This document shows positions 6,953-17,131 of a stretch of 46,281 nt of DNA, piece by piece. The position numbers and the translations under genes were made by a program. This DNA comes from Paenibacillaceae bacterium ZCTH02-B3 (lineage in GTDB: Bacteria; Bacillota; Bacilli; Paenibacillales; Paenibacillaceae). How positions within the stretch are numbered: the stretch's first letter is position 1; every line of letters begins with the position of its first letter. The notes beneath the pieces were generated by a model that was not told where the DNA came from, ran no database searches, and worked only from the letters and a program-made list of their open reading frames with translations. The DNA lies in assembly GCA_002159065.1 (NCBI GenBank), contig LZRV01000157.1:1-46281 (forward strand), written 5' to 3'.

Positions 6953-6968
6953 TGTGAAAAAAATCACG
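6953..6968. promoter_or_regulatory. Near-consensus FNR/CRP-like box, overlapping the mutY start
   Basis: TGTGA-N6-TCACG differs by one base from TGTGA-N6-TCACA. It lies in the cytochrome c / mutY divergent region and covers the GTG start of mutY. Its distance to the cytochrome -10 (centre near -52) is not a standard activating position, and the spacer is a run of A, so chance is a real possibility. Confidence 0.25.
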
Positions 6969-15437: not shown

Positions 15438-16163
15438 TCAGAGACGGCAGATGTCGTTCGGGCAAAATTCGCACCGGCACGTATTGCGCAGATAGTTCAT
15501 GTTTTTGATGACGATGTGGCCGTTTTTGACGTCGATGGCGCCGTCCCGCTTCAGCTGGCCGAAGATCCGGCTGACGCATTCCCGCGTGGCGCCGATCATG
15601 TCGGCCATCTCGGCGTGGTTCAGCCGCAGGCCGATGCGGAGGCCCCCCTCTTCCGGTTCGCCGTACGTGTTGGCCAGCCGGATGAGCAGGGAGCAGAGGG
15701 CGCCCTGTTTGCCGAAGGTGAGAAAATCCCGGAATTTCATCTGCGTCATCCGGTTCATCATGCCCATCCATTGCACGAATTCGATGGCGAAATCGCCGTG
15801 CTGCCACAGCAGGACCTCCAGGTCCTTCCGCTGGATGACGCCCGCGTGGGTGCGCTCCATGGCCTCGGCGGTGAAAATGTGCGTCGAATCCTTGAACGGA
15901 TCGATCTGGCCGAAAAGATCCCCGTCGCGGAACAGGTGGAAGGTGAACGACCTGCCGCCTTCCGTCGTCTTGGTCAGGCGTACAAGTCCCGACCGGACAA
16001 AAAACAGCTTGTCGGCCGGATCGCCTTCCCAGAACAGCACGGCTCCTTTTTCGAACGTTTTGTCGTACATGATGCTTTTCAGTTTGTCGAAGTTGTCGGG
16101 GCTGAGCACGCTGGCGATTCCCGATACCTTCGGATTGGCCGGTTTTTCCGCTGCCTGGATCAT
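15438..16163 (-). CDS. fnr: Fnr-type oxygen-responsive transcription factor
   Basis: A 241-residue Crp/Fnr regulator. An N-terminal cyclic-nucleotide-binding-like barrel (A-V-L-F-W-E-G-D-P-A-D-K-L-F-F-V) is followed by a winged helix whose recognition helix is G-A-T-R-E-C-V-S-R-I-F-G-Q-L. The key feature is the C-terminus: Cys231-x2-Cys234-x4-Cys239 (with Cys229 just before), the arrangement that holds the 4Fe-4S cluster of Bacillus subtilis Fnr, unlike the N-terminal cluster of E. coli FNR. Thus this is an anaerobic activator. The ATG at 16163 follows AAGGAGG. It diverges from mobA, and a consensus FNR box lies between them. Confidence 0.9.
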   Translation of the reverse strand: MIQAAEKPANPKVSGIASVLSPDNFDKLKSIMYDKTFEKGAVLFWEGDPADKLFFVRSGLVRLTKTTEGGRSFTFHLFRDGDLFGQIDPFKDSTHIFTAEAMERTHAGVIQRKDLEVLLWQHGDFAIEFVQWMGMMNRMTQMKFRDFLTFGKQGALCSLLIRLANTYGEPEEGGLRIGLRLNHAEMADMIGATRECVSRIFGQLKRDGAIDVKNGHIVIKNMNYLRNTCRCEFCPNDICRL

Positions 16164-16228: not shown

Positions 16229-16254
16229 TCGGGAGATTGTCGGGTTTTTGGGGA

Positions 16255-16266
16255 GGGAATTCCCTG
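16255..16266. promoter_or_regulatory. Perfect 12-bp palindrome AGGGAATTCCCT in the fnr-mobA spacer
   Basis: The palindrome lies about 30 bases upstream of the fnr -35 region. It may be an operator for another factor; no known consensus is claimed. Confidence 0.25.
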
Positions 16267-16308
16267 ATTTGCGGCTCGGGAAAATGCCGGGAAAAGGATC
16301 GGGGAATT

Positions 16309-16351
16309 TGTGAGATAGTTCACAGCGCGCGGAGGGCGGAAAGGTTAAAGT
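16309..16351 (+). promoter_or_regulatory. FNR box and class II FNR-dependent promoter of mobA
   Basis: TGTGA-GATAGT-TCACA (16309-16324) is a perfect match to the FNR/CRP-type consensus. A -10 element TAAAGT lies at 16346-16351, giving a predicted start near 16358. The box centre is then at about -41.5, the exact position for class II activation, and no -35 hexamer is seen because the box occupies it. Confidence 0.7.
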
Positions 16352-16395
16352 TTTAGGAGAACGGGGGAACCATACCTGGAAAGGATGTGATCCGG

Positions 16396-17016
16396 TTGCT
16401 GACGGGCATCATTCTGGCCGGCGGGCAGAACCGGAGGATGGGGGGGCACGCGAAAGCGCTCTTGCCTTTCGGGGAAAGCACGCTCATCCAGCATCAGATC
16501 GGAAGGATGCGGGAAATCTGCAGCGAGGTTATGGTGGTGACCAACGAGCCGCGACCGCTCCTGGCGTATGTCGACCGCTCGGTTCGCGTGATCACGGACT
16601 ACGTGACGGGACTCGGGCCGCTGGGCGGCATGCACGCGGGGCTGTCCCTTGCCCGGAACCAGAAGGCGTGGATCGTCGGCTGCGACATGCCGTTTTTGTC
16701 GCCGGAGGCGGCAAAACTGATGCTGGAACGCTCCGAAGGCGTCGATGCGGTGCTGCCCGCGGACGTAAGCGGCCCCTATCCCCTGCACGGCGTGTACGAC
16801 ACCGGCTGCGTCCGCGTGATCGCCGAGCTCGCCGAGCGGCGCGAATCCTCGCTTTTCCGCATGCTGGCGATGATCGACTGGATTTCGCTGACGAAGCAGG
16901 AGTGCGAAAAGCACGGGATTCCCTTCGATTTCGTGTTCGAGATCAACACGCCGGAGGATCACCGGAAAGCGCAGGAAATGTGGGCGGAAAAGATGCGCTA
17001 CCCGACACGGCCGTGA
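16396..17016 (+). CDS. mobA: Molybdenum cofactor guanylyltransferase
   Basis: About 206 residues. It joins GMP to molybdopterin to make the bis-MGD cofactor of nitrate reductase and formate dehydrogenase. The nucleotide-binding start is L-T-G-I-I-L-A-G-G-Q-N-R-R-M-G-G, with later D-Y-V-T-G-L-G-P-L-G-G-M and G-C-D-M-P-F-L-S-P. AAAGGA is ten bases before the TTG at 16396; the GTG at 16387 would begin one base after that ribosome site and is less likely. No other molybdenum genes are adjacent. The FNR box upstream links it to anaerobic respiration. A short terminator follows. Confidence 0.85.
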   Translation: MLTGIILAGGQNRRMGGHAKALLPFGESTLIQHQIGRMREICSEVMVVTNEPRPLLAYVDRSVRVITDYVTGLGPLGGMHAGLSLARNQKAWIVGCDMPFLSPEAAKLMLERSEGVDAVLPADVSGPYPLHGVYDTGCVRVIAELAERRESSLFRMLAMIDWISLTKQECEKHGIPFDFVFEINTPEDHRKAQEMWAEKMRYPTRP

Positions 17017-17105: not shown

Positions 17106-17131
17106 GAAGCTCCCGCGGCTTCTTTTTTTTT
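17106..17131 (+). terminator. Intrinsic terminator after mobA
   Basis: GAAGC/GCTTC stem with a GC loop, followed by nine T residues. The stem is short, but the T run is strong. Confidence 0.6.

Follow-up and report, generated by a model that had tools for sequence, protein, structure and literature searches.

The window, by which we mean the whole 46,281-nt stretch of DNA analysed, contains an fnr gene and a MobA-like gene in divergent orientation, with an intergenic box that both genes share. The features of this locus are as follows:

15438-16163, minus strand: fnr, encoding a Crp/Fnr regulator with a C-terminal C-x-C-x2-C-x4-C motif (domain matches and alignment)
16309-16324, unstranded: Fnr-type box TGTGAGATAGTTCACA, a perfect TGTGA-N6-TCACA
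16346-16351, plus strand: -10-like hexamer TAAAGT, starting 21 nt past the box, with no -35
16358, plus strand: predicted transcription start (+1), from the -10 position and class II geometry
16396-17016, plus strand: MobA-like NTP transferase paralogue (NTP_transf_3, paralogue clade, MobA fold)
17106-17122, plus strand: terminator-like hairpin with T tail, 3' of the MobA-like gene (consensus match alone)

A sequence-only reading of this DNA had described a perfect TGTGA-N6-TCACA box placed for class II activation of a promoter with a -10 but no -35, and both parts of that description agree with the sequence. The box is the sole perfect match in the window. TAAAGT shares four of six positions with TATAAT; taken as -12 to -7, it places +1 near 16358 and the centre of the box at -41.5, and a search for sigma-70 promoters turned up no -35/-10 pair. 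The predicted promoter therefore combines the two-fold TGTGA-N6-TCAC(A/T) motif, the spacing to the -10, and the poor -35 of the class II type. Three terminator-like hairpins were found, as compared with 2.3 expected in shuffles; given the one at 17106-17122, the transcript may carry the MobA-like gene alone and be monocistronic. An Rfam scan of the window gave no match, and hence no Moco riboswitch.

When the 220-base upstream region was shuffled 300 times with its dinucleotide composition preserved, no perfect box arose (p = 0.003, the floor of the test). A pattern search of the genome identified six perfect boxes in 3.12 Mb; sites with at most one mismatch numbered 27, only mildly commoner than the 21 matches to a reversed control pattern, so that a box by itself is weak evidence and its position is what counts. 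Elsewhere in the window, positions 6953-6968 hold a one-mismatch box, TGTGAAAAAAATCACG.

Position was assessed among relatives. Orthologues of fnr are present in 169 of the 197 family genomes sampled, and 63 of the 197 contain MobA-like genes that match at E 1e-25 or better; about 14 of the genomes inspected have the pair side by side in divergent orientation. In the 220 bases upstream of 42 paralogue genes and eight canonical mobA genes, a perfect or one-mismatch box was found before 22 of the paralogues and none of the canonical genes (Fisher p 0.006). Thirty promoters whose box departs from the motif at no more than two positions were picked blind to the -10; 26 of them have a hexamer with at least four TATAAT matches at an offset of 20-22, and 19 have it at exactly 21, whereas in 2000 shuffles the 20-22 count averaged 3.5 and never exceeded 10; these promoters share descent and are non-independent samples, which inflates the counts. 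Identity between the relatives' MobA-like proteins and the window protein is mostly 34-60%, and by eye their spacers show little likeness outside the box/-10 unit. Conservation of the box in orthologous fnr-mobA spacers, which had been proposed as a check, was found, and extends to loci where the gene has left fnr: L050, L051, L060, L066, and L078 all retain the box with no fnr directly upstream, and in L050 and L051 an identical TAAAGT lies at the same offset. Upstream of a perfect box in L048 there is only a partial fnr match of about 95 residues. Since the box/-10 unit is kept without fnr directly upstream, the promoter belongs to the MobA-like gene; comparison among these sequences shows the class II geometry to be tied to that gene, and, because the box and its exact -10 spacing are conserved in relatives, a predicted class II Fnr-type promoter before it is strongly supported.

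Some of these loci hold further arrangements. The partial match in L048 and L093 (G142) is to a second fnr, and an intact fnr is found about 8 kb away. In L089 and L090 (G050 and G061), the fnr-mobA-like spacer contains two boxes, the promoter-proximal one with a -10 at 21 nt; the distal box may serve fnr. The order in L060, annotated by eye, is adhE-mobA-like-pflB-pflA-fnr, and L066 and L078 look alike. An obligate partnership with PFL was considered and rejected despite this arrangement, as a search of the host's own genome found no PFL.

The divergent neighbour was previously read as an Fnr with a C-terminal C-x2-C-x4-C, and this is confirmed: the protein has the Crp/Fnr domains and the C-terminal motif of Bacillus-type Fnr, and its cysteines (C229, C231, C234, and C239) are invariant in all 30 aligned orthologues. 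D146, invariant or nearly so in the orthologue alignment, is a candidate for the aspartate that acts as fourth cluster ligand in Bacillus-type Fnr. Crp-type proteins read TGTGA with an arginine and a glutamate of the recognition helix, which in this Fnr is R194-E195-x-V-S-R, and the B. subtilis Fnr box is of the TGTGA-N6-TCAC type. Fnr itself is the likely binder of the box at 16309-16324.

Three other accounts of the box were weighed. As an intergenic element shared by both genes, it could serve autoregulation of fnr, and some relatives do have boxes before fnr without a mobA neighbour; however, no -10 lies at 20-22 nt in the direction of fnr (the best candidate, CATTTT, has 3/6 matches), 153 bp separate the centre of the box from the start of fnr, and the box survives where an intact fnr is not directly upstream. 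We rejected this account as highly improbable. Alternatively, the redox repressor Rex could use the box as its operator; Rex is encoded in the genome and in Staphylococcus binds TGTGAn6TCACA sites (PMC2883068); the left flank here, TTGTGA, fits. The right end, however, is CACAG rather than CACAA, so the symmetric TTGTG-N8-CACAA is absent, whereas several other sites in the genome have it in full, before etf, ndh, and related genes. In relatives the boxes often end in TCACT or start with CGTGA, and a strict 21-22 nt to a -10 without a -35 suits an activator, not a repressor. Position, flank, and the form of the boxes in relatives argue against Rex as the main binder, and we regard its chances as very slim. 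A third account keeps the class II box and assigns it to a different activator, a second Crp/Fnr protein (L002, G000 C57) that is without the cysteines and may respond to a signal other than oxygen. Its recognition helix, STRETVNR, is close to the Fnr consensus, such that it could, by its sequence, bind the same sites, and its own neighbourhood contains two class II-like boxes; because the helices are nearly the same, Fnr is a likely rather than a certain binder. Against this stands the adjacent, divergent pairing of fnr and the MobA-like gene in the genomes noted above, and we consider activation by L002 unlikely.

Elsewhere in the genome, boxes followed after 20-22 nt by a -10 hexamer that matches at five or more positions precede a cupredoxin-ba3-type oxidase operon, a DUF2249/NnrS-like cluster, a nitroreductase, and a Dps-like gene (loci L133, G000 C35; L131, G000 C57; L011, G000 C38), the names being a reading of the sequences rather than the result of a family search. 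These class II-like boxes look like the outline of a coherent low-oxygen regulon, for which the genes listed would be candidates. Rex-type TTGTG-N8-CACAA sites in the same genome, at L132, L130, L010, and L124, precede etf-fix genes, an FMN-binding lipoprotein/NDH-2 pair, ndh, and a quinolinate-synthase-like gene. A second conserved element lies upstream of fnr: in fnr orientation it reads AATCAGGGAATTCCCC-N6-ATTCAGTCAATCCCCTCAT, at about 16247-16275 of the window on the minus strand, and it also occurs in L018, L019, L026, L029, L033, and others. Its core, CAGGGAATTCCC, is present with at most two mismatches in 21 of 31 upstream regions tested; the element may be bound by a protein that regulates fnr.

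The longest listed frame of the MobA-like gene starts at GTG 16387. Translation more probably begins at TTG 16396, judging by the family N-terminus MLTGIILAGG (relatives' proteins begin MLTG or MLSG) and by a workable ribosome-binding distance, with AAAGGA 10 nt before the TTG. The protein matches Pfam NTP_transf_3, while the curated MobA models match below their cut-offs (TIGR02665, 85.2 bits against 151.85; NF011056, 117.9 against 379). An AlphaFold model (pLDDT 95) predicts the fold of MobA, with Z 24.2 to A. fulgidus 3ngw and Z 22 to E. coli MobA 1e5k, and every MobA catalytic residue tested is intact in the window protein, including R19, K25, and D101 (E. coli MobA numbering). A scan of genome contigs with the MobA-like protein gave only three named loci, in Cohnella and Paenibacillus. 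Cohnella lubricantis has an fnr-mobA-like pair (L055/L118); a Cohnella protein of the clade has lost R19, and another clade protein carries H at position 101.

Phylogenetic analysis separates 43 paralogue sequences from 22 canonical ones with support of 97/83 and places the window protein outside the Moco-linked canonical MobA clade of the family. Of the 43 paralogues, 16 retain R19, 27 retain K25, and 25 retain D101, as compared with 22/22 for each in canonical MobA. Conversely, P55, R67, and L88 are invariant in the paralogues, and a position that is arginine in 21 of the 22 canonical sequences is mostly aspartate in them; the window protein has all of these clade-specific residues, with the aspartate at D138. 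Across ten pairs, whose synonymous sites are near saturation, dN/dS is 0.05-0.25 (0.12-0.25 for pairs such as G050/G061 and G051/G116), indicating that the compared paralogue genes are under purifying selection. Several genomes hold a paralogue together with a second MobA beside moeA or a molybdoenzyme; paralogues were collected at a cut-off of E 1e-25, so a further, more distant MobA may be present in genomes that gave one match. The clade members in G056 and G066 adjoin moeA and may still make bis-MGD. Searches of open-access papers recovered none on a MobA-like paralogue of the type found here in Paenibacillaceae, and none tying an Fnr box to mobA in Bacillus.

Searches of the host genome, a draft of 187 contigs that is 97.7% complete, detected no MoaC, MoaE, or MoeA and no molybdopterin oxidoreductase (PF00384); positive controls in each of these searches gave matches in 11 of 14 reference genomes. 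Across the 197 genomes, MoeA is found in 168, PF00384 in 157, and MoaC in 183. Six genomes that carry the paralogue, G000, G013, G050, G051, G061, and G116, lack both MoeA and PF00384; MoaC is present in G013, G051, and G116 despite the missing MoeA and PF00384, and is also absent from G061, which consists of one contig and is listed as 100% complete. The suggestion that Fnr control of mobA couples bis-MGD synthesis to anaerobiosis is therefore not supported in this organism: the rest of the pathway and the client enzymes were not detected, so a bis-MGD role fails here, and the gene lies outside the canonical clade.

That the gene is nonetheless a true MobA, induced by Fnr for bis-MGD at low oxygen, would accord with the fold and the intact catalytic motif, and has a parallel in E. 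coli, in which FNR activates moaABCDE (PMC10845959). Beyond the missing pathway, the placement outside the canonical clade and the scores beneath the curated cut-offs speak against this interpretation, and we think it very unlikely. Alternatively, the gene may be a relict of a Moco pathway that was lost recently, with gene and promoter still undecayed. The whole catalytic motif in the window protein would fit such a history; however, the gene is retained in six genomes that lack MoeA and PF00384, the G050/G061 and G051/G116 pairs evolve under the constraint given above, and the paralogue split spans the whole family. We consider a relict unlikely.

The explanation that we favor, and consider probable overall, is a class II Fnr-type promoter firing an oxygen-regulated, MobA-derived paralogue with a non-Moco role in this host. 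At low oxygen, Fnr carrying its C-terminal iron-sulfur cluster would bind 16309-16324 and touch RNA polymerase from -41.5, standing in for the absent -35, and the plus-strand MobA-like gene would then be transcribed from 16358; we infer the binding, the low-oxygen switch, and the start site from the arrangement described. The product would be a MobA-fold nucleotidyltransferase of the Paenibacillaceae paralogue clade that acts outside Moco in this host, as we infer from the missing pathway, and that has some other role at low oxygen. It may act as a nucleotidyltransferase on another substrate; in members missing catalytic residues it could alternatively be a binding or regulatory protein. The intact catalytic residues and MobA fold mean that the window protein has possibly retained MobA chemistry of its own, which counts against this explanation. 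Whether the clade more broadly represents a molybdenum-independent, MobA-derived member of the Fnr regulon that has acquired a new substrate or works other than as an enzyme, and that is kept where Moco has been wholly lost, we regard as evenly balanced. If the favored explanation is correct, the name "mobA" is wrong for genes in many Paenibacillaceae, and an annotation of this kind is no sign that Moco is made; the recruitment of a cofactor enzyme to a different use could be tested directly on a small oxygen-controlled protein that is encoded by a single gene and whose fold is known; and Gram-positive Fnr would gain a predicted target outside nitrate respiration.

Among known systems, a close regulatory parallel is B. 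subtilis, in which an Fnr that likewise has a C-terminal cluster controls the narGHJI and narK-fnr promoters (PMC8139620). The target here, however, is not a nitrate-respiration gene, and the host has no detectable molybdopterin oxidoreductase, and so no nitrate reductase of that kind. As at E. coli moaABCDE, an oxygen-responsive Crp/Fnr site appears to lie before a Moco-type gene, but the gene here is MobA-like and its host lacks the Moco pathway. Rex operators (TTGTGAAW4TTCACAA; PMC2883068) have a similar palindromic core, whereas the window box has an asymmetric flank and an activator-like position. With the MobA structures 1e5k and 3ngw, the window protein shares the predicted fold (Z 22-24) and the catalytic residues; it differs in having only 22-25% identity to them, in belonging to a paralogue clade with conserved residues of its own and many eroded members, and in being encoded by a genome without Moco.
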